From assembly GCA_905221605.1 (NCBI GenBank), contig CAJNDS010000736.1, positions 1-64,000 on the forward strand: a stretch of 64,000 bases of DNA, given 5' to 3'. Below the pieces are notes generated by a model. The model saw only the letters and a program-made list of their open reading frames with translations, was not told the DNA's origin and made no database searches. This DNA is from Symbiodinium natans (Eukaryota; Sar; Dinophyceae; Suessiales; Symbiodiniaceae). Positions 3,294 to 22,503 of this stretch are shown here, piece by piece. Positions within the stretch are counted from its first letter, which is position 1, and each line of letters begins with the position of its first letter. Position numbers and translations under genes: made by a program.

Positions 3294-3674
3294 TCATTGC
3301 ATACCGTGCAAGACTTTCACCAAAACAGACACCCATTTCTGCAGGAGCGCAGGATCATCTGGAGATGTTCTGCAACAATGTATCTTGCGCCAAACGTCCT
3401 CAAGTTTTGTTGCTTCGGACGGCAGGTCTTTGAGAAGCTCCACCAAAAGATCTAGCATGCTTTCAGTGATCCGGTGGTGCACCACCGGCAGGTCACATGG
3501 ACAGTGGTTGGCAAGTATGTGATGGGAGGCCAACCGCATGGTTTCGTCAACAGCACGGGCGCCCTCCAACAAATACCCAATGTTCTTGGAGAGGATGCTG
3601 TTCACGGCATGTTCAGCCAAATGGTTTTTGTGGCGTTGGCAAGCGCCATGCACCAATTTCGACCTCAAATGCAA
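3294..3674 (-). CDS. Possible exon of an unrecognised protein
   Basis: An open frame of 126 codons on the minus strand has more protein-like composition than its surroundings. The section from about residue 45 has alternating hydrophobic and charged residues that could form helices (LLVELLKDLP, WVSVLVKVLHG). The frame opens at a TTG directly after an in-frame stop, so the true 5' limit is probably an exon boundary rather than a start codon. Plus-strand frames over the same bases are also open (129 and 147 codons), so strand choice is uncertain. I do not recognise the family. Nothing nearby suggests a function. Confidence 0.3.
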   Translation of the reverse strand: MHLRSKLVHGACQRHKNHLAEHAVNSILSKNIGYLLEGARAVDETMRLASHHILANHCPCDLPVVHHRITESMLDLLVELLKDLPSEATKLEDVWRKIHCCRTSPDDPALLQKWVSVLVKVLHGMQ

Positions 3675-4437
3675 AAGCTATCGAGCAATGTGAAGAAGGA
3701 GGGCTGTTTACAATGGTTGGAACTCGAGATACACAAGATGCTTGGCTTCTTGGTCGCTCTGCTGACAAGCATCTTCGTACCTGAGGTGGGCTCGCAGCGC
3801 TTCTTGCACGTGGTCCCAGCGTGCAAAAGTAAGATTTGCGGACACAACATGTTCCTACATCAGTTGAGAGCATGGCAGACGAAAGCTACAGGGCGGGAAG
3901 AGCAGCTTGACAAGTGAGCTAGATTTGCGCTTTGCCCATCAATGGAACGCTGCACCGGCACCTCCAGGCAAAACATAAAGTTGCAACACGCCCTTCAATG
4001 GAGCGCAGCATCAAAAGCAAAGGCAAACAGAAAAAGGTTTCCAGTTCGACGCTCGCAATTCAAGGGCCGGTCGTGACTTTATGGTTTCTGGGGCGCCGGA
4101 AGTCTCCAGAAGCTTCCAGAAGCCTCCAGAAGCCTCCAGATCCTTCCAGGGCCTTCCAGAGCAGCCACTGCAAAACAACGTTTTTGCGGGCTGTGGCGAA
4201 CTCGCTGAGCCTCAGAAGCCTCCAGATGGTTTCAGGGGCCTCCAAACTCTTCAGCCGGGCCCTCAAAAGCTTCCAAAGTCTACAGCCACGGCCAAACCAC
4301 ATTTGCTACTTGCACTTTGAGGACAACCAGGCACAACTCCAAACATGGTTTTGAAGGCCTCCAGCTAAAGTGACTGCAAACCCGTCTGCGCACTTCGTCT
4401 GGTTCTTGCACCAACCACCATTTCTGAGTCAGAGAGG
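3675..4437. other. No gene recognised
   Basis: Short open frames exist on both strands but none has recognisable motifs. The main visible structure is the small CCAGAAGCCT minisatellite listed separately. Confidence 0.5.
4098..4165. repeat. Short minisatellite, CCAGAAGCCT-like unit
   Basis: About five imperfect 10-11 bp units of the form tccagaagcct follow one another, then decay into related tccag words until about 4,290. Confidence 0.7.
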
Positions 4438-4609
4438 ATGGGCCCCCCCCCTTTGGGCAAAGGGGGGCTTAAGCCCCCCTTTAAGCCCCCCTTTAAGCCC
4501 CCCTTTAAGCCCCCCTTAAGCCCCCCTTCAAAGGGGTCCTTGCAAAGGGGGTCCCTTCGGGGGGGGGGGGGGCAAAGGGTCAAAGCCCTTAATTTAAGCC
4601 CCCCCTTAA
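4438..4609. repeat. Left arm of a G/C-homopolymer, CTTAA-rich inverted repeat
   Basis: The block starts ATGGGCCCCCCC, continues with repeated AAGCCCCCCTTT units and a run of 14 G, and ends CCCCCCTTAA at the edge of the left copia element. Read in reverse complement it matches 22,321-22,503 in order, including the ggctttgaccctttg and aaggggtcc words. The two arms therefore form one large inverted repeat now split by two retrotransposons. Weaker similarity continues about 12 bp beyond the ATGGGCC edge, so the outer limit is approximate. Confidence 0.85.
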
Positions 4610-4822
4610 TGAAATTTTACAAGATCAATGTTCACAGACTGGTTTGATCACACAATCCAGAATACACAAGATGCACAGCAAAGTCACTTGATGCAATCAC
4701 TCACTCAGCAATCTTGGTTTGTGCCGCCTTGAGCCAAAGCACCGAGTCAATGCTCATGTTGAGCATGCTGCTGTGCCAATGCTTCTCTGGAAGCATGCCA
4801 ATTGTGACCTTATATTCTAACA
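4610..4822 (-). repeat. 3' LTR of the left element (213 bp)
   Basis: On the plus strand it reads from TGAAATTTTACAAG to TTCTAACA. It matches 13,261-13,472 with about five substitutions and one single-base indel. It contains cttgagccaaa at 4,728-4,738, the complement of the last 11 nt of the dinoflagellate spliced leader. Confidence 0.93.
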
Positions 4823-5293
4823 CGGTCCCTCAGCAGAGACAATGTTTGTCTGTGCTGTTCTCCAGTCACAATTCAAATAATTTCGTAAAACAAAGATTCA
4901 GTCAACCAATCAACGGAGTATGTCGAAAAAAATCTCGACTGCAAACGACTACCAATCAGCTCAGCAGTGAACAATGCACTCAGAGGCTCGGCTCAATCCT
5001 TTTGCTTTGCAAGCGAATCGCAATCGCTTCAAAAGAGAACTTGCAACGAAACCTGCAATGTTCTGTTGGCATACCGAATGCTCCAATGCATCCGAATCAA
5101 TACACCACACGGAGTGGTCCTGAGAAACGGTCAGCAAAGTTTCCAATCGGGGTCCAATGAGCTGCAGCAAGTGAAAAACCACATCATCACCAATGAAAAG
5201 CATCAACTGTAAAGCCAATCGTCGAAGCACAAACCAATCAAATGCAATCTCATCTTTCCAGGCCAGTCAAACTTGTTGGATGCCGATGAGGCA

Positions 5294-6535
5294 TCAGTCC
5301 ATCTGGTGGACGTTGAGGGCAATCCTCAATCGGCTGCCTCCGCTTGCGATCGTGAGCTCGGAGCTGCCAATCTGGCCTTCGCCAATGGCCCTTGCCACTG
5401 CGCTTCCAGCAATGGCCGACGAGCCAATGCCTGCGGTGCGTCCTGCACCAATCAGCTTGCTCAGGCGTGTCGGGACGGCAATGTGGCGGTGGAACGAAAA
5501 CTGCTCCGTTGTGCCACTCAAGTCCCAATTCAATCCGTCCAAAAGGGCCTTCAGTGACAATCGAGTGTCAACCACCATCGCAGTCAACAGCTCAATCGGG
5601 TTCAGGCGGTAGTTGCCATCTTCAATGGCCTCCACGATCAAGCAATGGCCACAGTAAGACTGGTTGTGCCAATGCAACAATCCGCCCTTTCCCGTGGCGG
5701 GGGTTCTTCAAGACCGTGGGGAATCGGGACATCAATGGGTGGTACCCAATGATCCAGACATTCTCGCGCAATCCTGCCTCAATGGAGGGGACCTGATCGC
5801 ACCACTGATGGAGCTTCACCAATGCCTGGTCAATGGTGGTGAAGGCATTTGCCTGACCACACGGAAAACCATCCAATGCAATGACGCCGTCTGCCACCAC
5901 GCTTCGCATCAATGACTCTGGCAATGCCAGGAAGAAGGGCATCGCCATCAATGAGCCATCCAGGATCATCTCACTTCCAATCTGCCAGTGATGGACACAA
6001 TGACCCAATTGCGAACTTGCAGCGTGCGGATGGTCAATGGGACCATTCCTTCCTGAGCAGTGACCAATGCCAATGGCAACCCATGTTGGACTGCACCAAC
6101 GCGCATTCCAGCCTGCGCACTGTAAGCGACAATGAGCCATGCCAATCCCACGGAAGGACCAATGCCCTCTGGACTGGGCCAATCCTCCGTTTTGAGGCAT
6201 GTCGCGTACGATCCAAGCCTCAATGGATTCAATCCAGCTTGCGGCTCCAATGTCTTGAGGCTTGCATTGTTGAGCAGCACTCCACCGATGCAATGCTCAA
6301 TCAGTCTCATCCTCACCAAAAGAGCTTTCGCTGTGTCGATGTCAATGCCAATCCTCCGAACGATCGGGAGGCATGCTGTCTCTGTCGGGAGCAATGCCAA
6401 TGCATCAGACAGGATCTCCTGCAATCCCCTGTATTGCATCGCGCTTTCGTTCAGGAGGCGCTTGCAATCGTCTTTCAACTGATCTAAGCCAGCCAATGGG
6501 ACGATCGGGGCAATCACACCTGCGGGGACGGCCAT
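5294..6535 (-). pseudogene. Third ORF (ORF3) of the left element, unknown function, frameshifted
   Basis: The frame begins with ATG at 6,535, runs to about 5,966, continues in a second frame (5,622-6,293 open) and ends in a third (to 5,294). Joined conceptually it is about 400 residues. It sits between pol and the 3' LTR, where envelope-like or accessory ORFs of retroelements lie. The same ORF occurs in the right element at 20,422-21,638. Shared landmarks include GPSV-AW, FFLALP against FIALP, FPCGQAN against FPCQQAN, PSIEA against PSIKA, the exact string HWHNQSYCG, HRHIA, GAGRTAG and GSRLRI near the stop. I see no signal peptide, membrane segment or catalytic motif that names a family. The sense strand is dense with ATTG. 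Confidence 0.75.
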
Positions 6536-7221
6536 GGTTGCCAATCTACGGACTGCAGAAAGGACAGTGTTCACAAGGCGCAATGCACAAAATGCTCTAG
6601 GCCCGAATGAGTGATCGCAATGTGACGCAATGTGAGCCACAGTTCAGCGTGATCAATGCTTCAAAATTTGCAGAAAACCAATTCTTCATGCACTCCGCTC
6701 ACTGGAAAATCAATTCAGGGTTTCGGGCTTTATGTACAATGACAGTCAGAAGGAGCAATTTGTTCAATTGCAATGCTTGACGGTCCCTTGTTTGCCAATG
6801 TCGTTTCAATGGCTGTCGTCCGCTCAATAGCGGACTAGCTGCGCACCTAACCGCAATGCGGTTGACGGCGGTTGAGCGATGCTCTTAAAATCAATCTTAA
6901 ACACAATAAACACTAAACAACATGACTGAATGCACAACGCACAATGCAGTACTGACATGTTGCACATGTGACAAGAATGTCAATGCGACTGCAATGCACT
7001 GTCAAGACAGCAATGTTCTTCTCTCTCTCTTTCTCTCAATGCTCAACGCAATCCAATTTAGACCGCGGAGGTCAAAGCGAAAACAACACAATTCCTCGGT
7101 CCCTCAAACAGGACCGGAAAAGCAATGCAATGGCCCAAGCCGCGTAACGTCGCGGGGCGAAGGGTCGGGTGGGCGGGGAAACAAAAGGGAAAGTGAAACA
7201 GTTTTTTTTCCGATCCAGTGC
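6536..7221 (-). other. Non-coding spacer between pol and ORF3, left element
   Basis: No open frame looks coding. The spacer is conserved with 19,752-20,421 of the right element, for example in the words around tgacggtccctgtttgcc and the ctctctctttctctc tract. Similarity fades about 60-80 bp before the ORF3 start. It may hold a splice or leader region for ORF3 expression; that is inference. Confidence 0.6.
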
Positions 7222-9819
7222 TCAGCCATATCGAAATTGGTTCCTGACCAATCCAAGCTTCCCAATGAGGTTGTGCAATGTTTCGGTGGAGACGTATTTG
7301 GTCAATACATCCGCCGGGTTGAACTTGGTTCCTATCTTGCGGACTTGCAGCAATCCGCTCTGTACAAGATTTTGCATGTACAAGTATCGCAATTCTACGT
7401 GCTTTGTACGCTTTCCAGCGCCAAATCTAGTAGCCATGCTCTTACCTGCAGTAGAATCGGTGTACGCAACAATCTGCACACGTCGCGCAAACTCCGCTTC
7501 CAAGACAAGATTCTTTACGAACAATGCCTCGTTCACTCCTTGGCCAATAGCATACAGTTCAGCCTCACCAGAAGACAATGCCACAGTGGCCTGTGTCCTC
7601 GAGGAGTGAATGACATCGCAATCAAGAACCTGCACCGTGCTTCCGCTGGTGCTCTTCCGCGTGCGAGAACAACCTGCCCAATCGCTATCCACGTAGCAAG
7701 CAATGTCAAGGGTACAACGCCAATCGGCCCGCATCTGGCTCGGGCGTAGTCGTAGAACAGACTGCTTCGTGCCTACAATGTACCTTAGCAGATGCTTCAG
7801 CTTAGCTAGGCTTTCCAATGTAGGTGACTTCACGTCACGCGACAGTTCCTTGACAGCGTAAGAGCAATCCGGCCGAACGAAAGCTAGCCAGAGCAATTTC
7901 CCTACTGCGGTTCGGTACTTAGCGTGCTCAGCAGGTTCCAATGGCGTGTCTGCGTCTTGCATGCGTTTCAATGCGGTCGTGCCAGTGGTATTGACATTGT
8001 TTGCCGATTCCATTTGGTAGATCTTAAGCAACTCCTCAATGTAACCCTGCGACATGAACATGTCAATCGAATCGCCATTGTGCTTGAGGCGACGTCCGAG
8101 AAACGAATGTTCTGTTCCAGGCTCCAATGAGCCAATGATCTTCACCAACAGTTCTTTGCCTAAGGCTTCAGTGAACGACTTCGACTGCTCAGAATCTCCA
8201 ACAATCAGCAAATCGTCTACGTATGCCAAAACATACAGCTGCTTGGACGAATGACAATACAAGTTTCCGTCAGACTTGCATCGTCTGAATCCTAGCTTAG
8301 CCATGACCTTGGCAAAATGCTCTTGCCACAATCGAGGGCTTTGTTTCAGGCCATACATAGCTTTGTTCAATTTCCACAGGCACTTGAAATCGGGGTAGTA
8401 CTCAGCCGGTGGCCAAATGAAAATGTCTTCAGTCATTGGCGCATGAAGGAATGCTGTGGACACATCTGCAAGGTTAATGCACCAATTGCGCGTCAACGCC
8501 ATGATCAGCATGATGCGTAGCGTGACCAATGACGGCGTGCTCGCAAACAGCGTGTCAGAGTCCAATGCCTGTGCGTCCTGATAGCATCCCTGGACTACCA
8601 ATCTCATCTGCAACTCCGTGTCTGTTTTCCATCTCTTGACCCATTTGACACCAATGGCATTCCTAACTTGTTCTTCAGTGCACTCTTCAATTGGTTTCTC
8701 GGTGTAAACCGTGAAGTCTTTCATGGACTTCATCTCTTTGTTCATACCAATCTTTTGGGCTTCTTCAGGGAATTCACGGGTGATGTCCCAAATGATCGGT
8801 TCCGAGAGTTTCAATTCTTCTTTGTATTCTTCACTGTCGTAGTTGACTTCTACAGGAATGTCAATGCCATCTTTGGTCGTGACCTTAGCTACACCAACCT
8901 GTCCGCAGATCCAATTCGTAACAGAAGCTACCACGCAGGCAATCCTCTGCGATTTGCTCAGCGGAGGAACAGAAGGTGCATCGGGGTCAATCCTAAGAGA
9001 CTTCGCTGGGCGTCCAATCTCCTCTTCAGCAGACCTGCGTACTGTCGGGGATCTCTCAGTCTCTCCAATCGATGTTTCTGCGACTCGAATCGGAAGATCC
9101 TCTAACGCAGGAAGCTCCTCAGCAATGGCTTCACCAGGGGGTTCTTGGGGAACCTCAGGAGTAGCAACACTACTTTTCTCCAATCCAGGAGGGTCTCTGA
9201 TTTTGCCTGTAACCGTCAATGACTTCGGCAATACAAAGTCAGTAGTGGGCTCTTCTCTGGCTTTGGGCTTCCAAGGGAGAGCTTGCAATTCCTTCAGAGG
9301 TCCTACCTGCCAATGCTGCGAGGGTGGCAATCTTCTAACAGTGCGAACTTTCACTACACCGTCTTCTGTTGCCACAATGATTTCATTCGCCTCGGTGTCT
9401 CTACCTAGCCACAAAGCAATCTTCCAGGGCGTGTCTGCTTTTCGTGCTTTTGAAGGGGTAATGACCTTAGCTTGTACGCACTCTGCAAATGTGCACAATC
9501 CACCTTCATAGTTTCGGTTCCACCTACGAAAATACGATGTGAATCCGTCAGAATGCACGAGGTATCGGTTAATCAACCACTGCGCGTGTTTGACTGCCCA
9601 AGGGTACAATGCGCTGTTGGAGTCAATTGCGAAACCAGTGTTGTGCTCGACCTGATACAGTAGCGTACGCAATTGTCCGTACAATGTGCGTTGCATCTGT
9701 CCTACAGATCCACTAGACTGGGAATGTTCCTTCGGGGCTGCGCGCAAGCTCAATCCACCTAACTCAGAGCAAACACGTTGACACAATGCTTTGAGGGGAC
9801 TTTCTTGGTCATACTGCAA
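7222..9819 (-). CDS. Copia pol, 3' part: integrase C-terminal half, RT and RNase H
   Basis: An uninterrupted 865-codon frame. The first ~130 residues are the second half of the integrase core (QYDQE, then SGSVGQMQRTL). A basic, proline-rich linker follows, then the copia RT domain with LADVSTAFLHA, YGLKQSPRLW and the catalytic YVDD at about 8,212-8,223. RNase H follows with YVDSDWAGC, SSGEAELYA, TDSTAG and NPADVLTKY before the stop. The RT and RNase H acidic residues appear intact. The integrase motif has glycine where the third catalytic residue (Glu in NGVAERMNRTL-type motifs) is expected. This is the best preserved frame of either element. It lacks its own start because upstream frameshifts cut it from gag. 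Confidence 0.92.
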   Translation of the reverse strand: MQYDQESPLKALCQRVCSELGGLSLRAAPKEHSQSSGSVGQMQRTLYGQLRTLLYQVEHNTGFAIDSNSALYPWAVKHAQWLINRYLVHSDGFTSYFRRWNRNYEGGLCTFAECVQAKVITPSKARKADTPWKIALWLGRDTEANEIIVATEDGVVKVRTVRRLPPSQHWQVGPLKELQALPWKPKAREEPTTDFVLPKSLTVTGKIRDPPGLEKSSVATPEVPQEPPGEAIAEELPALEDLPIRVAETSIGETERSPTVRRSAEEEIGRPAKSLRIDPDAPSVPPLSKSQRIACVVASVTNWICGQVGVAKVTTKDGIDIPVEVNYDSEEYKEELKLSEPIIWDITREFPEEAQKIGMNKEMKSMKDFTVYTEKPIEECTEEQVRNAIGVKWVKRWKTDTELQMRLVVQGCYQDAQALDSDTLFASTPSLVTLRIMLIMALTRNWCINLADVSTAFLHAPMTEDIFIWPPAEYYPDFKCLWKLNKAMYGLKQSPRLWQEHFAKVMAKLGFRRCKSDGNLYCHSSKQLYVLAYVDDLLIVGDSEQSKSFTEALGKELLVKIIGSLEPGTEHSFLGRRLKHNGDSIDMFMSQGYIEELLKIYQMESANNVNTTGTTALKRMQDADTPLEPAEHAKYRTAVGKLLWLAFVRPDCSYAVKELSRDVKSPTLESLAKLKHLLRYIVGTKQSVLRLRPSQMRADWRCTLDIACYVDSDWAGCSRTRKSTSGSTVQVLDCDVIHSSRTQATVALSSGEAELYAIGQGVNEALFVKNLVLEAEFARRVQIVAYTDSTAGKSMATRFGAGKRTKHVELRYLYMQNLVQSGLLQVRKIGTKFNPADVLTKYVSTETLHNLIGKLGLVRNQFRYG

Positions 9820-9865
9820 TACACCAAATGTCCTACCACATTCGAAGATGAACTTTTCAGTTCAG

Positions 9866-10876
9866 CTACACTGTAGTCATGCCCAATCCTGATATCACGT
9901 CAACTGCAGAGAGAATCTTCTGCAAAGGCAAATCCTTATTCGTGGCACTAGAGCAGTAGTCCACTTGGATAACAGGCTGACGGTCAATCTGCTTCTTGGC
10001 TGGGCCATGTCTGCCTTTCGCCTTGACACAATGTGGACACCAATCTCTAAACGGCAAATGAGTCAATTCGTGTTGTTTTCTTTCGGACGAAGAGGGTTCA
10101 CCAGGAACCTTCAATCCTTTCGGGACTCTCGCATGTCTATCTGAGGTTTCCTGTTCAGTTCTCTCATACTCAATCGGAATGGGAACAAAGACAGAGAATC
10201 CTCTCCATGCTTGAAACAAATCCCTCCGAGGATCTTGTTCAGGTTCTTTCACAGTACCATCATCCTCACGAACAGAACACCAATAGTCCTCAATTTCAGT
10301 ACCATTCGATTCAGGGAACTGAGATTCCACAATGTATGTGTAGCGATCTGCCATCAGTGAGTCGCCAAATTCGTTGTCTCGCTTGGCGTCAATCGGGGAA
10401 GGCTCATCATCAGGATGAACCAAATCAGTTCGTTTCTGGTGAATCATGCGAATCCAAAACGTAGGCAATTGAACCCAATAGTCAGTAGTTCGCTCCATTC
10501 CAGTCAATGGATCAGGAGTGTGGAAGAGCCGCAATAGATCTTCTTTCATCTTGTTGTCAAACACTTGAACAGAGCGCAATCTGCTCAAAATCGTGTTTTC
10601 AGAGTCCAAGGTCTCCAATACCTCGGTCCCTCGGCTCAACACACGACGCTCAATGGGAGAACTACTGGGCTGCAAAGTCTCAGAACTGGGCTTCAATGCC
10701 TGCGAGGGCTCAGGCTTAGGTGATGTTTTGGGCTGAGGCTTCAATGCTTTCGGGGGCTGCAAAGTCTCCGGGCGCTTTCGCAGCCTTTGCTTCAATGCAA
10801 AGCGAGTGCTCCCAGTCCACTCTCGATCATCCTTAGCCTTGGAGTCCTCCAATGAACGAAAATCCGCGTCAATCAC
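9866..10876 (-). pseudogene. Copia pol, 5' part: pre-integrase zinc motif and start of integrase core
   Basis: A 336-codon frame. The N-terminal half is proline- and charge-rich linker (KPQPKTSPKPEPSQ). Near the C-terminus is the copia pre-integrase motif H-x3-H-x6-C-x2-C (HELTHLPFRDWCPHC), followed by VIQVDYC, which holds the first catalytic Asp of integrase. The frame stops after SGLGMTTV because about 26 bp present in the right element are missing here; a further single-base difference then shifts the frame. Upstream it is cut from gag-protease by a 10-bp tandem duplication of aggtaggacc near 10,920. Confidence 0.85.
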
Positions 10877-10919
10877 CGTCTTACGACTGCCATCCTTGTA
10901 GGACTTACGGGTCTCTCTC

Positions 10920-13194
10920 CTACCTGGTCCTACCTGTCAATCTCTCTTCCTCTACGGGCATCTCCTTGCTCAATCTTCCAAAGTCAAACATGGCACTTCT
11001 GGGTTTCACGTGATGACGAATCAATTGATGTGCCTTGTCATCTACTTCCCAATAGTCCATGTGCTTGAAGTTTTGCTTCTGCCTACCTTTCTGCGCAGCA
11101 GCAATGAGCGAGGAGATCTTAGACACATGATCGTATGCGAGATCAGCAATGTCAGTTACACCGCGAAGTTCCACATCCAATGCTGTGAGGTCAATCTCTG
11201 CCATGAGAGAGTTAATTTCCAATTCGCTTCTGGGTGCATCAGACGATGAGAAAGGAATCACAGTAGGAGTAAGATACACCAATGTACCTTGGCGAACAAT
11301 GGGTACCGGAAGTCCTGTGGGAGTGATCAATGCCATGAAGTCGCGAGACATGACTGTCCAGAAATCTTGCAATAGAAAACGAGAAACACTGACCAATGGA
11401 AACGGGATGTTTTCACACACATAAAACTGGATACACAATGAATGACCATTGCAATCGAGTTCAACAACTCTCTTGCCCAATATGTTGAGGGTTTTGCCTG
11501 AAATGCTCCTAAGGGCTGGACAATCAGAACCAACAGGGAGCAATGGGTAGTCCTCTGCAAACCACGGAGGACAGCAATTCGCAGATGCTCCGCTGTCGAA
11601 CAAAATCCAGCTCTTGTCAACAATTCCAGACTGCAAGTGAAACTCCGCTAGCGTGTCTGAAGGTGGGTCAATCAATGACTGACTGGACTGCTCAATGCGA
11701 TTCAAACAGTCGTCGGTAGTCTGCTCAATGCTCTCAACCCTCGCTGGCACTCCGGTAGACAGAACACCAATGAGCATCAAGGCTCCAATGAACATCTTGC
11801 TCAGTAACCCAGGTTGTGATGGCCTTGCAATGCCACCTTGTCCTCGCCTTTGAGAGAACAATGGATTGGAGGAACTTGTGAGCTCTTCTGTCTCTCCAAT
11901 CTCTTCTTCTGGGCTCTCTTCAATGACAGGCGAAGTCATGACTGCTGCTGCAGTCTCAATCGCACCTGAGGCTCTGACAATGTCTGTCTGAGGTTGGAGC
12001 AATGTCTGAGACTGTGACTGATCTGCAAGACCGGACTCGAACCAATCATACGACCAATCATCAGACCACCAACTGTAGTCATCGTCGCACCAATCGTCAT
12101 ACCACCAATCATCCTCTACAAGCGCGCCTTGCCAATCTCCGTACCACCAGCTGGCATCATCATCATCATTCCAATCCCAGTTCCAATCATTCTCTACGTT
12201 TCCTTCCTGCGTTGCGGCAATCGTAGCGGGCCCTTCTTCATACACTGCACCTTGTTTCGCATGCGGGCATTCCTTTGACCAATGTGCAGGTGAGCCACAA
12301 ACAAAACAACCTGTACCTTTGCCAATGCTCTTTCCTTTTCCTTTTCCTTTTCCTTTGAATCCTTTTCCTTTTCCACCTTTTCCTTTTCCTTTGCCTTTGA
12401 ATCCCTTTCCTTTGCTCTTGCCGCTCTTTCCTTTGTTCCAATTCCAACTCTTTCCTTTTCCTTTTCCTCTGTACTTTCCTTTTCCTTTTAGCGCCCCAAT
12501 GTCCATCGGCGCTGGTCCCTGGGAACTGTTTGATGCTGTCTGCCAATTTGCCAAATGTCGGCTCTGGTAATACTGCTTCATGATCTGCAGCACATCACTG
12601 AAGGTTGTCAATGCATCTACGTTCAAACGAAGGTGTTGTTGCAATGAACCTGACGTCTTCGTTACCATCAATGTGACGAGCAGGTCGTCATGCAATGCTC
12701 GTCCTGTGGCCTTCTCATGTTTGTTCTTCAATGAAATGAACTCAGTCAAATCCGCTTCGAAATGGGCGTCTCTGAGCTTGAAATCCAAAATCCGACTCAA
12801 TAGGCTCACCCCCCTTGCTCTGTCGGGCAATGAAAATCTTTCGTACAGTTGTCGCCAAGTTTCGAAAATTTCCGTGCTCGTTCAATCTCACCACTAATCT
12901 CGCTGATCCATCTGTGATCTGTGCGAGCAAATAGTGCAGTTGCTTTGAGAACACAATGAGGTTTGAGTTCGTGGCATTCGAGTGCTCAAATGCAACCAAG
13001 TGTTCATCAATACACGGTACTGATGCTCCTTCCAATCTGCCCATAATCTCAAGAGCCATGGGTTTGTACAATGCTACGTAGGACTTCAGCTGCCAACTCC
13101 AATCTTCCCACTTCTCTGACTCGCCATGGTAAACTGGCGGTGGGAACAATTTCATCTCGCCTCCGAGTCCTTGAAAATCGCCGAAAACAGCCAT
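10920..13194 (-). pseudogene. Copia gag and aspartic protease, frameshifted
   Basis: The ATG is at 13,194 (MAVFGDFQGLGG). The frame breaks near 12,866 through a 2-nt deletion relative to the right copy, and the rest is open from 12,830 to 10,920 (636 codons). Order of parts: helical capsid-like region; a lysine/glycine repeat tract of GKGK units; a CCHC zinc knuckle (CFVCGSPAHWSKEC, about 12,268-12,310); a tract rich in Trp, Asp and Tyr; a short hydrophobic segment (KMFIGALMLIGVLSTG); and an aspartic protease with the DSGA active site at about 11,582-11,601. Gag would package the RNA and protease would cut the polyprotein. The GK-rich and WD-rich pair is unusual for copia gag. Confidence 0.88.
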
Positions 13195-13242
13195 CCTAGC
13201 AATGTCGGGCTCAATCACAGTTAAGGAGTCCCTGGGCTTCGC

Positions 13243-13260
13243 CGCAGAGCTCCGCTACCA
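13243..13260 (-). other. Primer-binding site, left element
   Basis: Directly inside the 5' LTR the minus strand reads TGGTAGCGGAGCTCTGCG. TGGTA is the usual start of a copia site complementary to the 3' end of a methionine tRNA. The right element has the same sequence at the same place. Confidence 0.75.
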
Positions 13261-13472
13261 TGAAATTTTACAAGATCAATGTTCACAGACTGGCTTGATC
13301 ACACAATCCAGAATACACAAGATGCACAGCAAAGTCACTTGATGCAATCACTCACTCAGCAATCTTGTTTGTGCCGCCTTGAGCCAAAGCACCGAGTCAA
13401 TGCTCATGTTGAGCATGTCGCTGTGCCAATGCTTCTCTGGAAGCATGCCAATTGTGACCTTGTATTATAACA
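13261..13472 (-). repeat. 5' LTR of the left element (212 bp)
   Basis: On the plus strand it runs TGAAATTTTACAAG to TTATAACA. It is closer to the left element's other LTR than to the LTRs of the right element. The complement of the spliced-leader tail (cttgagccaaa) lies at 13,378-13,388. Confidence 0.94.
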
Positions 13473-13503
13473 CATTAAGGGGGGGCTTAAGGGGGGGCTT
13501 AAG
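13473..13503. repeat. 31-bp spacer between the two elements
   Basis: The sequence is a remnant of the GGGGGGGCTTAA repeat into which both elements inserted. It holds two AAGGGGGGGCTT units. The last five bases, TTAAG, match the five bases after the right element's 3' LTR. Confidence 0.9.
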
Positions 13504-13715
13504 TGTTAGAATAGAAGGTCACAATTGGCATGCTCCCAGAGAGGCATTGATGCAGTGGCATGCTCAACATGAGCATTGACTCGATGCTTTGGCTCAAGGC
13601 GGCACAAATAAGATAGCTGAGTGAGTGATTGCATCAAGTGACTTTGCTGTGCATCTTGTGTACTCTGGATTGTGTGACCAAGCCAGTCTGTGAACACTGA
13701 TCTTGTAAAATTTCA
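13504..13715 (+). repeat. 5' LTR of the right element (212 bp)
   Basis: Starts TGTTAGAATAGAAGG and ends TGTAAAATTTCA. Identical to 22,109-22,320. It contains tttggctcaag at 13,588-13,598. Confidence 0.96.
13588..13598 (+). other. Spliced-leader-tail match within the LTR
   Basis: TTTGGCTCAAG equals the last 11 nt of the 22-nt dinoflagellate spliced leader, as established knowledge gives it. The same word lies in all four LTRs of the two elements. The bases upstream (cgatgc) do not match the rest of the leader. Confidence 0.5.
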
Positions 13716-13733
13716 TGGTAGCGGAGCTCTGCG
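13716..13733 (+). other. Primer-binding site, right element
   Basis: TGGTAGCGGAGCTCTGCG begins immediately after the LTR's final CA, as expected for a tRNA-primed LTR element. The sequence resembles the complement of a methionine-tRNA 3' end. Confidence 0.75.
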
Positions 13734-13781
13734 GCGAAGCCCAGGGACTCCTTAACTGTGATTGAGCCCGATAGTGCTAGG

Positions 13782-15634
13782 ATGGCTGTTTTCGGCGATT
13801 TTCAAGGACTCGGACACCCTACCATGGCGAATCAGAGAAGTGGGAAGATTGGAGTTGGCAGCTGAAGTCCTACGTAGCACTGTACAAACCCATGGCTCTT
13901 GAGATTATGGGCAGATTGGAAGGAGCAGCAGTACCTTGTACTGATGAACACCTGATTGCTTTTGAGCACTCGAATTCCCCGAACTCAAACCTTGTTGTGT
14001 TCTCAAAGCAATTGCACTACTTGCTTGCACAGATCACAGATGGACCAGCAAGATTGGTAGTGAGACTGAACGAGCACGGAAACGGTTTCGAAACTTGGCG
14101 ACAGTTGTATGATCGGTTTTCATTGCCTGACAGAGCAAGGGGGGTGAGCCTACTGAGTCGAATTTTGGATTTCAAGCTCAGGGACGCCCATTTCGAAGCG
14201 GATTTGACTGAGTTCATCTCACTGAAGAACAAACATGAGAAGGCCACAGGACGAGCGTTGGATGACGATCTGCTCGTCACATTGATGGTGACGAAGACGT
14301 CAGGTTCACTGCAACAACACCTTCGTTTGAACGTAGATGCATTGACAACATTCAGTGATGTGCTGCAGATCATGAAGCAGTACTACCAGAGCCGACATTT
14401 GGCAAATTGGCAGACAACATCAAACAGTTCCCAGGGACCAGCGCCGATGGACATTGGGGCGCTGAAAGGCAAAGGAAATTACAGAGGAAAAGGAAAAGGA
14501 AAGAGTTGGAATTGGAACAAAGGAAAGAGCGGCAAGAGCAAAGGAAAGGGATTCAAAGGCAAAGGAAAAGGAAAAGGTGGGGAAGGAAAAGGTGGAAAAG
14601 GAAAAGGATTCAAAGGCAAAGGAAAAGGAAAAGGAAAGAGCATTGGCAAAGGCACAGGTTGCTTTGTTTGTGGTTCACCTGCACATTGGTCAAAGGAATG
14701 CCCGCGTGCGAAACAAGGTGCAGTGTACGAAGAAGGGCCCGCCGCGATTGCCGCAACACAGGAAGGAAACGTAGAGAATGACTGGAACTGGGATTGGAGT
14801 GATGATGATGCCAGCTGGTGGTACGGTGATTGGCAAGGCGCGCTTGTAGAGGATGATTGGTGGTATGACGACTGGTGCGATGATGACTACAGTTGGTGGT
14901 CTGATGATTGGTCGTATGATTGGTCTGAAACCGGTCTTGCGGATCAGTCACAGTCGCAAACACTGCTCCAACCTCAGACAAACATTGCCAGGGCCTCAGG
15001 TGCAGTTGAGACTGCAGCGGCAGTCATGACTTCGCCTGTTGTTGAGAGCAGAGAAGAAGAGATTGGAGAGACAGAAGAGCTCGCAAGTTCCTCCAATCCA
15101 TTGCTCTCTCAAAGGCGAGTACGAGGTGGCATAGCAAGGCCATCACAACCTGGGTTACTGAGCAAGATGTTCATTGGAGCCTTGATGCTCATTGGTGTTC
15201 TGTCTACCGGAGTGCCAGCGAGAGTTGAGAGCATTGAACAGACTACCGACGACTGTTTGAATCGCATCGAGCAGTCCAGTCAGTCGTTGATTGACCCACC
15301 GTCAGACACGCTAGCAGAGTTTCACTTGCAGTCTGGAGTTGTCGACAAGAGTTGGATTCTGTTCGACAGTGGAGCATCTGCTAATTGTTGTCCTCCATGG
15401 TTCGCAGAGGACTATCCACTGCTCCCTTCGGTTCTGATTGTCCTGCTCTTAGGAGCATTTCAGGCAAAACCCTCAACATACTGGGCAAGAGAGTTGTTGA
15501 ACTCGATTGCAACGGTCACTCATTGTGTATCCAGTTTTATGTGTGTGAAAATGTCCCGTTTCCATTGGTTAGTGTTTCTCGTTTTCTACTGCAGGATTTC
15601 TGGACAGTCATGTCTCGCGACTTCATGGCATTGA
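13782..15634 (+). pseudogene. Copia gag and start of protease, right element
   Basis: The ATG is at 13,782 (MAVFGDFQGLG), then about 25 bp present in the left copy are missing, shifting the frame. The main frame is open from 13,892 to 15,634. It holds the capsid-like region, a longer GKGK tract than the left copy (an extra GGEGKGGKGKG-type unit), the CCHC knuckle at 14,660-14,701, the Trp/Asp-rich tract, the hydrophobic KMFIGALMLIGVLSTG segment, and DSGAS at about 15,362-15,376. A 1-nt loss near 15,427 ends sense coding; the tail of this frame to 15,634 is out of phase. Confidence 0.88.
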
Positions 15635-17100
15635 TCACTCCCACAGGACTTCCGGTGCCCATTGTTCGTCAAGGTACATTGGTGTATCTTACTCCTACGG
15701 TGATTCCTTTCTCGTCGTCCGATGCACCCAGAAGCGAACTGGAGATTAACTCTCTCATGGCAGAGATTGATCTCAATGCGCTGGACGTGGAACTTCGCGG
15801 TGTAACAGACATTGCTGATCTTGCTTATGATCATGTGTCTAAGATCTCCTCGCTCATTGCTGCTGCACAGAAAGGTAGGAAGAAGCAAAACTTCAAGCAC
15901 ATGGACTATTGGGAAGTAGATGACACGACGCATCAATTGATTCGTCATCACGTGAAACCCAGAAGTGCCATGTTTGACCTTGGCAGATTGAGCAAAGAGA
16001 TGCCCGTAGAAGAAGAGAGACTGACAGGTAGGAGAGAGACCCGTCAGTCCTACAAAGATGGCAGTCGTAAGACGGTGATTGATGCGGATTTCCGTTCATT
16101 GGAGGACTCCAAGGCTAAGGATGATCGAGAGTGGACTGGGAGCACTCGCTTCGCATTGAGGCAAAGGCTGCGTAAACGTCCGGAGGCTTCGCAGCCCCCG
16201 AAGGCATTGACGCCACAGCCCAAAACATCACCTAAACCTGAGCCCTCGCAGGCATTGAAGCCCAGCTCTGAAGCGTTAAAGCCCAGTAGTTCTCCCGTTG
16301 AGCGTCGTGTGTTGAGCCGAGGGACCGAGGTATTGGAGACCTTGGATTCTGAAAACACGCTTTTGAGCAGATTGCGTTCTGTTCAGGTGTTTGACAACAA
16401 AATGAAAGAAGATCTATTGCGGCTCTACCACACTCCTGACCCACTGACGGGAACGGAGCGAACTACTGACTACTGGCTTCAACTACCTACGTTTTGGATT
16501 CGCATGATTCACCAGAAACGAACTGATTTGGTTCATCCTGATGATGAGCCTTCCCCGATTGATGCCAAGCGAGATAACGAATTTGGCGACTCACTGATGG
16601 CAGATCGCTACACATACGTTGTGGAATCTCAGTTCCCTGAGTCGAATGGCACAGAAATTGAGGACTATTGGTGTTCTGTTCGTGATGATGATGGTACTGT
16701 TACAGAACCTGAACAAGATCCTCGTAGGGATTTGTTTCAAGCATGGAGAGGATTCTCTGTCTTTGTTCCCATTCCGATCGAGTATGAGAGAACTGAACAG
16801 GAAACCTCAGATAGACATGCGAGAGTCCCGAAAGGATTGAAGGTTCCTGGTGAACCCTCTTCGTCCGAAAGAAAACAACACGAGTTGACTCATTTGCCAT
16901 TTAGGGATTGGTGCCCACATTGTGTCAAGGCGAAAGGCAGACATGGTCCAGCCAAGAAGCAGATTGACCGTCAGCCGGTTATCCAAGTGGACTACTGCTT
17001 TAGTGCCACTCACAAGGATTTGCCTCTGCAGAAGGTTCTGTCTGCAGTTGACGTGATATCAGGATTGGGCATGGCTGTCGTTGTCCCATCGAAAGATTGA
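15385..17100 (+). pseudogene. Copia protease (rest), linker, pre-integrase and integrase start, right element
   Basis: A 571-codon open frame that continues protease after the frame change near 15,427 (GSDCPALRSISGKTLNILG). It runs uninterrupted through the region where the left copy has its 10-bp duplication, then the proline/charge-rich linker, the HELTHLPFRDWCPHC zinc motif and VIQVDYC (first integrase Asp). It ends VVVPSKD just after 17,090. The next pol frame overlaps from 17,081, so a small indel separates the halves of the integrase core. Confidence 0.87.
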
Positions 17101-19171
17101 CTACAGTGTAGCCGAACTGAAGAAATTCATCTTCGAATGTGGTAGGACATTTGGCGTGTTGCAGTACGACCAAGAAAGTCCCCTCAAAGCATTGTGTCAA
17201 CGTGTTTGCTCTGAGTTAGGTGGATTGAGCTTGCGCGCAGCCCCGAAGGAACATTCCCAGTCTAGTGGATCTGTAGGACAGATGCAACGCACATTGTACG
17301 GACAATTGCGTACGCTGCTGTACCAGGTTGAGCACAACACTGGTTTCGCAATCGACTCCAACAGTGCATTGTATCCTTGGGCAGTCAAACACGCGCAGTG
17401 GTTGATCAACCGATACCTCGTGCATTCTGACGGATTCACATCGTATTTTCGTAGGTGGAACCGAAACTATGAAGGTGGATTGTGCGCATTCGCAGAGTGC
17501 GTACAAGCTAAGGTCATCACCCCTTCAAAAGCACGAAAGGCAGACACGCCCTGGAAGATTGCTTTGTGGCTAGGTAGAGATACCGAGGCGAATGAAATCA
17601 TTGTGGCAACAGAAGACGGTGTAGTGAAAGTTCGCACTGTTAGAAGACTGCCACCCTCACAGCATTGGCAGGTAGGACCTCTGAAGGAATTGCAAGCTCT
17701 TCCATGGAAGCCTAAAGCCAGAGAAGAGCCCACTACCGACTTTGTACTGCCGAAGTCATTGACGGTTACCGGTAAAATCAGAGACCCTCCAGGATTGGAG
17801 AAAAGTAGTGTTGCTACTCCCGAGGTTCCCCAAGAAACCCCTGGTGAAGCCATTGCTGAGGAGCTCCCTGCGTTAGAGGACCTTCCGATTCGAGTCGCAG
17901 AAACCTCGATTGGAGAAACTGAGAGATCCCCGACAGTACGCAGGACAGCTGAAGAGGAGATTGAACGCCCAGCGAAATCTCTTAGGATAGACCCAGATGC
18001 ACCTTCCGTTCCTCCGCTGAGCAAGTCGCAGAGGATTGCTTGCGTGGTAGCTTCTGTCACGAATTGGATCTGCGGACAGGTTGGTGTCGCTAAGGTCACG
18101 ACCAAAGATGGCATTGACATTCCTGTAGAAGTCAACTACGACAGTGAAGAGTACAAAGAAGAATTGAAACTCTCGGAACCGATCATTTGGGACATCACCC
18201 GTGAATTCCCTGAAGAAGCCCAAAAGATTGGTATGAACAAAGAGATGAAGTCCATGAAAGACTTCACGGTTTACACCGAGAAGCCAATTGAGGAGTGCAC
18301 TGAAGAGCAAATCAGGAATGCCATTGGTGTCAAATGGGTCAAGAGATGGAAAACAGACACGGATTTGCGGATGAGATTGGTAGGCCAGGGATGCTATCAG
18401 GACGCACAGGCATTGGACTCAGACACACTGTTTGCGAGCACGCCGTCATTGGTCACGTTACGCATCATGCTGATCATGGCGTTGGCACGCAATTGGTGCA
18501 TTAACCTTGCAGATGTGTCTACAGCATTCCTTCATGCGCCGATGACTGAAGACATTTTCATTTGGCCACCGGCTGAGTACTACCCCGATTTCAAGTGCCT
18601 GTGGAAATTGAACAAAGCTATGTATGGCCTGAAACAAAGCCCTCGACTGTGGCAAGAGCATTTTGCCAAGGTCATGGCTAAGCTAGGATTCAGACGATGC
18701 AAGTCTGACGGGAACTTGTATTGTCATTCGTCCAAGCAGCTGTATGTTTTGGCCTACGTAGATGACTTGCTGATTGTTGGAGATTCTGAGCAGTCGAAGT
18801 TGTTCATTGAAGCCTTAGGCAAAGAACTGTTGGTGAAGATCACTGGCTCATTGGAGCCTGGAACAGAACATTCGTTTCTCGGACGTCGCCTCAAGCACAA
18901 CGGCGATTCGATCGACATGTTCATGTCGCAGGGTTACATTGAGGAACTGCTTAAGATCTACCAAATGGAATCGGCAAACAATGTCAACACCACTGGCACG
19001 ACCGCGTTGAAACGCATGCAAGACGCAGACACGCCATTGGAGCCTGCTGAGCACGCTAAGTACCGAACCGCAGTAGGGAAATTGCTCTGGCTAGCTTTCG
19101 TTCGGCCGGATTGTTCTTACGCTGTCAAGGAACTCTCGCGTGACGTGAAGTCACCCACATTGGAAAGCTAA
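17081..19171 (+). pseudogene. Copia integrase second half and RT, right element
   Basis: A 696-codon frame that differs from the left copy's frame at only about 20 residues across the shared ~860 residues of pol. It contains FGVLQYDQE (second integrase Asp), SGSVGQMQRTL with Gly at the expected Glu, KWVKRWK, LADVSTAFLHA, YGLKQSPRLW and the catalytic YVDD at 18,754-18,765. It ends at SPTLES because five bases present in the left copy are missing, which cuts off RNase H. Confidence 0.9.
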
Positions 19172-19181
19172 GCTGAAGCAC

Positions 19182-19751
19182 TTGTTGAGGTACATTGTAG
19201 GCACGAAGCAGTCTGTTCTACGACTACGCCCGAGCCAAATGCTGGCCGCTTGGCGCTGTACCCTTGACGTTGCTTGCTATGTAGACAGCGATTGGGCAGG
19301 TTGTTCTCGCACGCGAAAGAGCACCAGCGGAAGCACGGTGCAGATTCTTGATTGCGATGTCATTCACTCCTCGAGGACGCAGGCCACTGTGGCATTGTCT
19401 TCTGGCGAGGCTGAACTTTACGCCATAGGCCAAGGAGTGAACGAGGCATTGTTCGTAAAGAATCTTGTCTTGGAAGCGGAGTTTGCGCGACGCGTGCAAA
19501 TTGTTGCGTACACCGATTCTACTGCAGGTAAAAGCATGGCTACTAGATTTGGTGCAGGAAAGCGTACAAAGCACGTAGAATTACGCTACTTGTACATGCA
19601 AAATCTTGTACAGAGCGGATTGCTGCAAGTACGTAAGATAGGAACCAAGTTCAACCCGGCGGATGTATTGACCAAATACGTCTCCACTGAGACACTGCAC
19701 AACCTCATCGGAAAGCTTGGATTGGTCAGGAGCCCACTTCGATATGGCTGA
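19182..19751 (+). pseudogene. Copia RNase H, right element
   Basis: A 189-codon frame that continues pol after the 5-nt deletion. RNase H motifs are present in order: CYVDSDWAGC, SSGEAELYA, YTDSTAGKS, RTKHVELRY and NPADVLTKYVS. The first Asp, the Glu and the second Asp of the active site are visible. It ends LGLVRSPLRYG, against NQFRYG in the left copy. Confidence 0.9.
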
Positions 19752-20421
19752 GCACTGGATCGAAAAAAAGAATTGTTTCACTTTTCCTTTGTTTCCCCGC
19801 CCACCCGACCCTTCTTGCCCGCGGCCTTACGGGGCTTGGGTCATTGCATTGCTCTTCCGGTCCTGTTTGAGGGACCGAGGAATTGAGGAATTGTGTCGTT
19901 TTCGCTTTGACCTCCGCGGTCTAAACTGGATTGCGTTGAGCTTTGAGAGAAAGAGAGAGAGAAGAACAGTGCTTTCTTGACAGTGCAGTGCATGTGCATT
20001 GGCATTGCGGTCATGAGCACGACATGTCAGTCACTGCAGTGTGCATTGTTCAGTCAGTCATGTTGTTTACTTTTATTGTGTTTAAGATGGACTTTATGAG
20101 CATCGCTCAACCGCCGTCAACGCAACGCGGTTAGGAGCGGACCGCCATTGAAACGACATTGGCAAACAGGGACCGTCAAAGCATAGCATTTGAACAAAGT
20201 GCTCCTTCTGACTGTCATTGTACATAAACCCCGAAATCCTGAAGTGATTTTCCGGTGAGCGGATGGCATGAAGAATTGATTTTCTGCAAATTTTGAAGCA
20301 TTGGTCACGCTGAACTGTGGCTTACATCGCGTCACATTGCGATCACTCGTTCGATCCTTAGAGTCTGTTGCGCACTGTGTGCGGGAGACATTGGTCTGAC
20401 AGTGTGTAGCTTGCATCAGCC
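19752..20421 (+). other. Non-coding spacer between pol and ORF3, right element
   Basis: Conserved with 6,536-7,221 in reverse orientation, including a GAGAGAAAGAGAGAGAG tract. Similarity weakens about 60-80 bp before the ORF3 ATG. No coding frame is evident. Confidence 0.6.
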
Positions 20422-21638
20422 ATGGCCGACGCCCCGATGCCTCAGCAATTGGCATTGCCAGACGCTCAACTTGGAAGAGTTGAAAGAGAGAAAGGAAAGA
20501 TTGATCCGCGACGCCACAATGGGAAACGGGAATCTTCAGCAGATGATTGTGGATTCCATTGGTTGGCTGCCGGACGAGCAGCTTTGCCAGTCCATTGCAC
20601 GAAACGTTGCTCTGGACGTCCCAAGGGCGAAAACCGCACTGAAGAAATTGCGGATCATCGAGAAAGGGATTGGAACGATGCTCATCAATGCAGCGGATAC
20701 CGGGAGTTTGACCAGCCTGGAACCCCTGGACATCAATCCACTGCGATTGGTGACACTGGATTGCCTTAAATCGAGCAGATGGCCCGACCCCCTTGGGTGT
20801 GGCCCCTCAGTGGCCATTGCCTGGGGATTGATGAGGATGAATGCCCAGGGTGGAAGGACATTGGGTCAGGTCACAAATTTCTCTCCGGATTGGCTGTGGC
20901 ATGCCAACCAAGCCTTCCTGCCATTGAGTCTTCGCACGATGCTCATCAGCCACTGGCGGATTGTGCATGTGAACCCGGTTCCGACGATCCCGGATTCATT
21001 GGTCTCCTTTCCTTGCTTCATCGCATTGCCGAACACAGTTGCTATGCGATTGGTCGAGACAGGCAGGCTATTGGTCAGCGATTTTCCGTGCCAACAGGCA
21101 AATTCTTTCCTTTCAGTGGCACACAGCCTTTCGAAGCTCCTGATGTGGATTGATCAGATCCCAAGCATCAAGGCATTGCGAGATGAGAACTTGATGATCG
21201 TTGGCGTGAACCACGCAGTGGGAAGATTGCCAGTTGTGTTGAAGAACGCTGATGGCACTGGTGGTCTGAAGCATTGGCATAACCAAAGCTACTGCGGATT
21301 TGCCGAATGAGATTGAGATTGTCCTGACCCAGGAAGAAGTGAGCACATTGGTGGTCTTGGACACGCAGACCACATTGCGTGAGCTGACTGATGGTCTCCA
21401 TTGGGACATGGTGCATTCTGGACAGCATTCCATCCACCGGCACATTGCGTTGCCGTCGAAGCTCAGCTTCCTATTGGGAGCAGGTCGCACAGCAGGACCC
21501 GGAGCCTCATTGCAGAGCACATTGGCAAGCCAGCGGAATGCTTTGAGTCGGAACAGCATTGGCAGCTCGGAAGTGACGATCATCGACGATGCTGGAAGCC
21601 GATTGCGAATCACCACGACGATCAACAAGATCGATTGA
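20422..21638 (+). pseudogene. Third ORF (ORF3) of the right element, unknown function, two frame changes
   Basis: The ATG at 20,422 reads MADAPMPQQLALP. Near 20,475 the frame changes into the long frame that is open to 21,310, and near 21,300 into the last frame ending at 21,638. The concept is about 400 residues. It is homologous to 5,294-6,535 by order and motifs (GPSVAIAW, CFIALP, FPCQQAN, PSIKA, RLPVVLKN, HWHNQSYCG, IHRHIALP, LGAGRTAG, GSRLRI), but only about a third of positions agree by eye, compared with about 98% in pol. The last ~90 residues are the most similar. No known family recognised. Confidence 0.75.
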
Positions 21639-22108
21639 AGTGCAGTGGCGCTCAACAATTTTGTCTGGCCTGGAAAGATGAGATTGCATTTGATTGGTTC
21701 TTGCTTTGATGATTGGTTTTACAGTTGATGCTTTTCATTGGTGATGATGTGGTTTCTTCATTTGCTGCAGCTCATTGGACCCCGATTGGAAACTTTGCTG
21801 ACCGTTTCTCAGGACCACCCCGTGTGGTGTATTGATTCGGATGCATTGGAGCATTCGGAACGCCAAAGAACTTTGCAGGTTTCGTTGCAAGTTCTCTTTT
21901 GAAGCGATTGCGGTTCGCTTACCAAGCAAAAGGACTGAACCGAGCCTCTGAGTGCAATGTTTACTGCTGAGCTGATTGGTAGTCGTTTGCAGTTGAGATT
22001 TTTTTCGATATACACCGTTGAGTAGTTGATTGAGTCTTTGTTTTACGAACTCATTTGAATTGTGACTTGAGAACAGCACAGACAACCATTGTCTCTGCTG
22101 AGGGACCG

Positions 22109-22320
22109 TGTTAGAATAGAAGGTCACAATTGGCATGCTCCCAGAGAGGCATTGATGCAGTGGCATGCTCAACATGAGCATTGACTCGATGCTTTGGCTC
22201 AAGGCGGCACAAATAAGATAGCTGAGTGAGTGATTGCATCAAGTGACTTTGCTGTGCATCTTGTGTACTCTGGATTGTGTGACCAAGCCAGTCTGTGAAC
22301 ACTGATCTTGTAAAATTTCA
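22109..22320 (+). repeat. 3' LTR of the right element (212 bp)
   Basis: Identical to the 5' LTR. Preceded by gctgagggaccg, a weak polypurine tract, and followed by TTAAG of the target duplication. The spliced-leader-tail word lies at 22,193-22,203. Confidence 0.96.
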
Positions 22321-22503
22321 TTAAGGGGGGGCTTAAGGGGGGGCTTAAGGGGGGCTTAAGGCTTAAGGGGGGGCTTAAGGGCTTTGACCCTTTGTCCGCC
22401 CCCCCCCCCCTTTGTCCCCCCCCCCCCCCCCCCGAAGAAACCCCTTTGCAGGGACCCCTTTGAAGGGGGGCTTAAGCCCCCTTTGCCCAAAGGGGGGGGC
22501 CCA
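22321..22503. repeat. Right arm of the G/C-homopolymer, CTTAA-rich inverted repeat
   Basis: Five or more GGGGGGCTTAA units, long C runs, then aaggggggggcccat. It is the reverse complement, in order, of 4,438-4,609, with more units here. Together with the 31-bp spacer, the two arms would form a foldback of roughly 380 bp if both retrotransposons were removed. Confidence 0.85.

Follow-up and report, generated by a model that had tools for sequence, protein, structure and literature searches.

How can a single gene differ massively between two retrotransposons that are otherwise nearly alike? This question is raised by a stretch of 64,000 nucleotides from Symbiodinium natans (contig CAJNDS010000736.1, positions 1 to 64,000 of the forward strand; hereafter the window), in which two copia-type long terminal repeat (LTR) elements lie head to head, element A on the minus strand and element B on the plus strand. 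Each element has the order pol, spacer, a third open reading frame (ORF3), a 3′ untranslated region (UTR) of about 450 bp, and the 3′ LTR. The initial annotation had described ORF3 as a swapped or fast-evolving cassette in an otherwise fixed frame of retrotransposon DNA. Our comparison of sequences favors the former, with a probability of about 0.8: ORF3 would be a functional accessory gene of the S. natans copia clade, of which at least two deeply diverged alleles have been placed by recombination in near-identical elements. The relevant features are listed below, and numbers beginning with L denote copies fetched from other loci of the genome.

4610..13472, minus strand: copia-type LTR element A, as assembled (LTR pair and flanks; RVT_2 match)
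4610-4822 and 13261-13472, minus strand: 3′ LTR and 5′ LTR of element A
13504..22320, plus strand: copia-type LTR element B, with identical LTRs at 13504-13715 (5′) and 22109-22320 (3′)
7222..9819, minus strand: pol part of element A, reverse transcriptase (RT) and RNase H, an open reading frame with RVT_2
17081..19751, plus strand: pol part of element B, open reading frames split over two frames (17081-19171 and 19182-19751)
5294..6535, minus strand: ORF3 type A, broken into three frame pieces; intact 413-aa type-A copies occur elsewhere in the genome
20422..21638, plus strand: ORF3 type B, broken into two frame pieces; intact 413-aa type-B copies occur elsewhere in the genome

In the full-length alignment of the two elements, 436 of 7382 sites differ outside ORF3 and 514 of 1174 inside it, a 7.4-fold contrast for which the 160 bp directly before ORF3 were excluded from the outside total. 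Of the 100-column bins before ORF3, nearly all lie at 88-100% identity, with one spacer bin at 80% and a left-edge bin at 72%; the bins within ORF3 are 50-65% identical, and identity is back at 93% in the bin beginning about 20 bp past the stop codons, the drop being sharp at both sides of the gene. These bins and counts confirm the localized divergence of ORF3 between near-identical elements and the return of similarity both upstream and downstream, as first noticed, and they rule out an even spread of divergence along the element. The body identity of about 98% proposed at that time was too high, the DNA outside ORF3 being about 94% identical and the RT 95.2%.

Searches of the genome DNA gave 16 matches for ORF3 of type A and 13 for type B, and 20 loci were fetched, 13 of type A (L009-L021, including the distant copies L020 and L021 with about 70% ORF3 identity) and seven of type B (L022-L028). 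With elements A and B added, type A is found in 14 copies and type B in eight, which may represent 13 and seven separate loci because the ORF3 of element A is that of L009 and element B is identical to L022. Six further loci (L029-L034) with only partial matches to the element entered neither the trees nor the counts. BLASTN found no match between ORF3 of type A and type B. The intact proteins are 413 aa long in both types; identity to the intact type-B protein P0002 is 43-44% in two proteins of type A and 91-99% in four others of type B. The strong protein divergence claimed earlier is thus real, the agreement being slightly higher than the suggested third, and frameshifts are not the whole explanation because intact proteins remain this far apart. 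The motifs quoted for ORF3 are also real: HWHNQSYCG is invariant in all seven aligned proteins, and HRHIA and GAGRTAG vary among them, with Cys replacing Arg in one copy and Ala replacing Thr in two. ORF3 occurs as two allele classes in otherwise near-identical elements. For instance, the A-type L013 and the B-type L026, each with two LTRs free of differences, are 4.1% different outside ORF3 and 43% inside it. Four B-type copies (L024, L026, L027, and L028) are nearer element B in RT and spacer, but nearer element A in gag, 3′ UTR, and LTR.

The most direct case of exchange is provided by L010, which carries an ORF3 of type A (94.3-98.6% identical to nine A-type copies) on a body like that of the B-type copy L026. 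Identity between L010 and L026 is 98.8% in the gag-integrase (gag-int) region, 98.9% in RT, 99.2% in the spacer, 56.4% in ORF3, 97.4% in the 3′ UTR, and 98.1% in the 3′ LTR; the synonymous divergence (dS) is 0.037 in gag-pol versus 2.09 in ORF3. This combination of a type-A ORF3 with an L026-like body points to cassette exchange rather than fast evolution in place, and the swapped cassette proposed at the outset is supported by the near-identical bodies with either ORF3 type together with the 5′ breakpoint of L010. The limits of the exchanged segment map to the window as follows.

6634..6696, minus strand: match to the 5′ breakpoint of the ORF3 swap in L010 (element coordinates 6778-6840, 100-160 bp upstream of the ATG)
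5250..5267, minus strand: approximate end of the purely A-like sequence of L010 (element coordinates 8207-8224, just past the stop codon)

From 27-44 bp past the stop codon onward, the sites of L010 are mixed and the 3′ breakpoint is not fixed.

The depth of the divergence is a stronger argument than tree topology, because the bodies are a few percent apart and ORF3 is saturated at synonymous sites between the types (dS about 2). Stem lengths in the ORF3 tree are about 0.97 for type B and about 0.29 for L020/L021. The RT of L021 is just 79-80% identical to that of element A or B, and the ORF3 of L020 and L021 is still about 70% identical to type A with no BLASTN match to type B. For the trees, 14 of the 22 rows could be used for gag-int and 17 of the 22 for RT, short copies having dropped out, and the approximately unbiased (AU) tests used 13 rows picked by length. 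Monophyly of the A-type copies, with L021 left outside, was rejected by gag-int (p=0.0001) and more weakly by RT plus spacer (p=0.039), and monophyly of the B-type copies was rejected marginally by RT plus spacer (p=0.045). The disagreement between ORF3 and RT for which a test had been suggested is supported by the depth of divergence and by L010, but the support from topology is weak beyond that copy.

Several observations weigh against exchange as the explanation. The 3′ UTR and LTR do not reject B-type monophyly (AU p about 0.5), and the rejections by the other regions probably rest largely on L010. In both the gag-int and the RT tree, most of the remaining bodies group according to ORF3 type, with the exception of the A-type copy L019, which groups with B-type copies in the RT tree with a support of 75. 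Past ORF3, L010 is about equally near the A-type L013 (98.1% in the 3′ UTR and 98.6% in the LTR) and L026 (values given above), and the 3′ side therefore does not prove that the sequence left an L026-like body and later returned to it. Moreover, L010 is a single locus in an assembly that joins or duplicates copies, and L009 and L013 are 99.9-100% identical in the 5′ LTR and gag-int but only about 98% afterwards, which reflects either a recent mosaic or an assembly effect. Finally, the ratio of nonsynonymous to synonymous substitution (dN/dS) within type A comes from a single pair, and the donor family of the type-B ORF3 was not found among the copies compared.

The assembly itself could suggest that the mosaic copies are chimeras and that A and B are merely two families wrongly joined. 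Element A is free of differences from the copy on contig C461 over its 5′ 6.26 kb, from the 5′ end to about window position 7212, and it is 100% identical to contig C1983 over 3207 bp (window 3794-7000), 3′ flank included. The likely join is the following.

7085..7211, no strand: likely assembly join within element A; right side identical to the contig C461 copy, left side (3794-7000) to contig C1983

Window 1-7211 thus probably duplicates C1983, as judged from the compared part at 3794-7000, and element A is probably an assembly chimera; either the assembly joined two loci inside a repeat, or a recent duplication with conversion took place. Element B is 100% identical to a copy on C461 over 8834 bases, with 77/88 bases of the flanks alike, and identical to L022 over window 13503-22336. 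C461 holds the same head-to-head pair in reverse, which may represent overlapping contigs or a recent duplication. The allele contrast stands despite the join in element A because the copy on C461 likewise carries an ORF3 of type A. A wrong joining of two families is improbable as a general explanation: A- and B-type elements are near-identical outside ORF3 at many separate loci, whereas two truly old families would differ throughout, and LTR pairs without difference are found in L013 and in four B-type copies (element B, L024, L026, and L027), as also in L022, which may be the same locus as element B. In addition, none of the ten bodies compared is close to 100% identical to L010, an observation that speaks against a chimera.

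Within the ORF3 types, dN/dS is 0.09-0.26 (six pairs, one of type A and five of type B). Purifying selection acts within each type, positive selection within them is ruled out by these values, and the fast evolution in place that had been offered as an option thereby loses its footing, even though ORF3 protein changes about 3.5-5 times faster than pol between element families (dN 0.81 and 1.09 versus 0.23). Divergence of ORF3 in place, driven by diversifying selection in an otherwise conserved element, could draw on this faster protein change, but is highly improbable since the copies fall in two discrete types of low dN/dS, and diversifying selection on the protein does not raise dS, which is about 2 between types versus 0.037 in the gag-pol of L010 and L026.

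If exchange is accepted, the simplest reading would be that the type-B ORF3 was imported from a sister family, because it is further from type A than the ORF3 of L020 and L021 is, despite a B-type pol that is far closer than the pol of L021. The exchange may have occurred by template switching of the reverse transcriptase between co-packaged RNAs, or by gene conversion, and the conserved spacer and 3′ UTR would offer homology on both sides. As for the persistence of both alleles, an allele-specific interaction of ORF3, be it with element particles, with the control of copy number, or with a factor of the host, could be imagined by analogy with the divergent Ty1 gag alleles of yeast, but this idea is rather doubtful.

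The nearest precedent found for such an allele swap would be the gag gene of Ty1/Ty1′ in yeast, for which part of PMC7055915 describes recombination that put a divergent gag allele into an otherwise similar copia-type element. As there, one gene of the S. natans elements is discordant with the rest, as seen in the depth of divergence and in L010; unlike there, where the gene is gag and the source of a self-restriction factor according to the same part of that report, the gene concerned is a separate third gene and both alleles reside in one genome. Third genes besides gag and pol, with ORF3 types common to different elements, are also described for LTR retrotransposons of bdelloid rotifers, where they encode env-like proteins, GDSL esterases, or DEDDy exonucleases (PMC5408684, in part). 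Unlike these, as far as that source describes them, the S. natans ORF3 has no Pfam match and is present as two alleles of one family.

A third element family, represented by L035, the one locus fetched among the P0002 matches, widens the comparison. The search of the genome proteins with P0002 gave 71 matches, of which 18 begin at residue 223 with 27-29% identity, ten of these lying in open frames of more than 400 codons. The pol protein of L035 is 71-73% identical, and its intact ORF3 of 428 aa is homologous at 24-33% identity with W-H-N-Q-S-Y kept. No family had been recognized for ORF3 by eye, and the profile search agrees: sequence searches against Pfam, PHROG, and PDB gave no significant match, and Pfam at E up to 5 gave no family for the intact type-A, type-B, or L035 proteins, and so no enzyme or fusion-protein domain of the bdelloid kind. 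Likewise, ORF3 gave no Pfam match to the cytosine methyltransferase domain of DNA-methyltransferase-carrying retrotransposons. Among 5.8 billion proteins, in searches of which two of three scored only about 8000 candidates, the matches are ORF3 relatives or pieces, with S. natans as the named organism and several nameless. AlphaFold gave no usable fold for full-length ORF3 (pLDDT 31); for the C-terminal part, it showed an alpha/beta pattern whose scores (pLDDT 47, pTM 0.53) are too low for interpretation. Short ORF3-like fragments also occur outside these elements (oriented L032 7857-7989 and oriented L033 8406-8541), among repeats that translate as LNPKP and lack the ATTG tag described below.

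The assignment to the Ty1/copia class is supported by RVT_2 (PF07727) with E=5e-35 in element A (7225-9819, minus strand) and 2e-34 in L035. The LTRs are about 212 nt long, with the putative primer-binding site TGGTAGCGGAGC after the 5′ LTR and the purine stretch GAGGGACCG before the 3′ LTR. Upstream of RT, an H-H-C-C-like stretch and VDYC can be seen by eye, and the gag-pol of L035 gave no Pfam integrase match. A scan of IMG/VR with pol found no relative.

The elements also carry a second unusual property, the tetramer ATTG repeated along the sense strand, which we refer to as the ATTG tag. Its evenness is expressed as the coefficient of variation (CV) of the spacing.

4594..13473, minus strand: ATTG tag of element A, 252 ATTG on the sense strand (28/kb) versus 19 CAAT, spacing CV 0.59
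13503..22336, plus strand: ATTG tag of element B, 179 ATTG on the sense strand (20/kb) versus 17 CAAT, spacing CV 0.58

In the 22 clipped copies, ATTG occurs at 18-37/kb on the sense strand, compared with about 2/kb for the complement in elements A and B and a background of 2.3/kb in 58 kb of flanks of other loci. Within the window the dispersed excess is confined to elements A and B; other stretches that look copia-like by eye (22.9-30 kb) show no ATTG excess at z>8, and TTGA reaches z 8.8 there. The tag runs through coding and non-coding parts alike, with seven sites in the 214 nt of the LTR, nine in 386 of the leader, 27 in 685 of the spacer, and 16 in 472 of the 3′ UTR. In pol, 58 sites were observed versus 30.7 in 500 synonymous shuffles (maximum 42), which rules out codon bias alone. 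The codons appear to be fitted to the tag, since 21 of the 22 Ile codons before G are ATT and Leu is TTG in 29 of 35 cases after a codon ending in A versus 12 of 52 otherwise.

Spacing was computed in 19 of the 22 clipped copies, L011, L012, and L022 being left out. The CV is 0.56-0.60 in ten long copies and 0.68 in L020 and L021, versus 0.98 (0.87-1.10) when sites are placed at random and 0.90 under a third-order Markov null; in gag-pol it is 0.45-0.53 versus null means of 0.87-0.92. The exceptions are L014 (CV 1.45, longest gap 639 nt) and L017 (1.25, 477 nt), which perhaps hold foreign DNA inside the clipped stretch. Evenness is not common to any frequent tetramer, since the other 13 of the 14 tetramers with at least 70 copies in element A have CVs of 0.86-1.16. 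In element A and L026, pairs of ATTG less than 24 nt apart are about half as dense as expected, and at larger distances the ratio to expectation is near 1. At gag-pol sites where a synonymous choice allows ATTG (L010, L026, and L027), it is used at 115-117 of 154-156 sites with no other ATTG within 15 nt, versus 22-24 of 74-80 with one; the corresponding values in L035 are 71/106 and 8/42. This neighbor effect is weaker in ORF3 (14/20 versus 37/66 in type A and 23/29 versus 23/43 in type B). Between families, 27 pol sites are common, of 58 and 49 in the two, so that about half have turned over with density and evenness kept, and L035:1-6320 has 163 sites in 6.3 kb at CV 0.54.

We lean slightly towards the view that ATTG forms a genome-long positional code, placed about every 35-50 nt on the RNA-sense strand, around the protein code and through LTRs and UTRs, kept in the L035 family at high synonymous divergence, and selected for density and even spacing. 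If true, a retrotransposon would carry a distributed cis signal of a new kind. Somewhat short of even odds is the more specific proposal that the genomic RNA is recognized at its ATTG words by a putative protein, namely the zinc-knuckle region of Gag, ORF3, or a host RNA-binding protein, that would bind about every 35 nt for dispersed packaging, coating, or protection. We know of no ATTG-binding protein. Such a role is consistent with the restriction to the sense strand in coding and non-coding parts, the even gag-pol spacing, the avoidance of near neighbors at sites of synonymous choice in gag-pol and L035, and the persistence of density and evenness through the turnover of pol sites. It is also consistent with the loss of sites in element B, which, like the identical L022, lacks about 30% of them: the lost sites had closer neighbors (p=0.012 and 0.037), and the remaining ones are more even than a random thinning of element A would leave (CV 0.54 versus 0.73 over the 5′ 6.9 kb, 0 of 5000 trials as low). 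However, element B was recently mobile, as its identical LTRs indicate, despite this loss; the neighbor effect is weaker in ORF3; and ATTG is not preferentially unpaired in the predicted RNA structure of element A (rank 84 of 169 tetramers), which rules out presentation in hairpin loops and speaks against hairpin packaging signals. The tag resembles the dispersed packaging signals of RNA viruses in the frequent recurrence of a short motif along an RNA genome, but differs from them, as partly described in PMC6281560, in consisting of about 250 bare, evenly spaced tetramers without predicted structural context in a retrotransposon.

Thymine modification is known in dinoflagellates, and ATTG might instead act at the DNA level, for example through such modification, or mark RNA or DNA for escape from host silencing. 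The strand asymmetry that follows element orientation in both window elements would fit, as would the enrichment for multimapping reads in immunoprecipitation (MeDIP) of 5-hydroxymethyluracil (5-hmU) from Breviolum minutum (PMC11071213, in part); the same part of that report states that 5-hmU has no sequence motif, and even spacing is not obviously needed, so we regard this role as unlikely. Still less likely is that biased mutation in reverse transcription or editing writes the tag. Outside ORF3, 65 sites are present only in element A and eight only in element B, mostly one step away from ACTG, GTTG, ATAG, AGTG, or ATCG, as biased mutation might produce; but at differing sites the outgroup L021 has ATTG in 22 cases, agrees with element B in three, and has another word in nine, suggesting mainly losses in element B, and the scarcity of neighbors closer than about 24 nt is not explained by mutation alone. 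No earlier report of such a tag was recognized in the open-licence literature, judged mostly from listings. In Polarella glacialis, (TTG)n is abundant and reported as simple repeats in the part of PMC7245778 considered; the S. natans tag shares the TTG-rich character in a dinoflagellate genome, but is dispersed, strand-specific, and limited in the window to the two elements.

The insertion sites of the elements share a further feature. Junctions were examined in 12 copies, with L016 not delimited at the 3′ side and L028 not at the 5′ side. TTAAG or CTTAA stands at the 3′ junction in 11 of the 12, and a CTTAAGGGGGGG-type repeat at the 3′ junction in ten and on the 5′ side in 11; the 3′ end of L027 runs into an inverted LTR end, and L035 has the same type of repeat at its 3′ junction (L035:6320-6440).

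13473-13503, 4594-4610, and 22321-22400: CTTAAGGGGGGG-type repeat arrays around the window elements

The elements have a strong target-site preference for such arrays, and the head-to-head pair would need no special mechanism because both insertions lie in the same array. TTAAG at both junctions in several copies, a target-site duplication, is weak evidence since the target itself is a tandem repeat. The LTRs of both families also contain TTTGGCTCAAG (4728 and 13378 on the minus strand, 13588 and 22193 on the plus strand, and L035:6188, with a further window match at 27447), which we take to match the 3′ end of the dinoflagellate spliced leader and which might supply homology for strand transfer from trans-spliced RNA.

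An ATTG tag that is evenly spaced along one strand and accommodated to the coding sequence would represent an unusual genome-scale RNA signal, open to direct test, and it may also bear on the TTG richness of a related genome. To our knowledge, little is known of transposon control in dinoflagellates. Two ancient alleles of an accessory gene in near-identical retrotransposons would point to an allele-specific conflict or control in this dinoflagellate.

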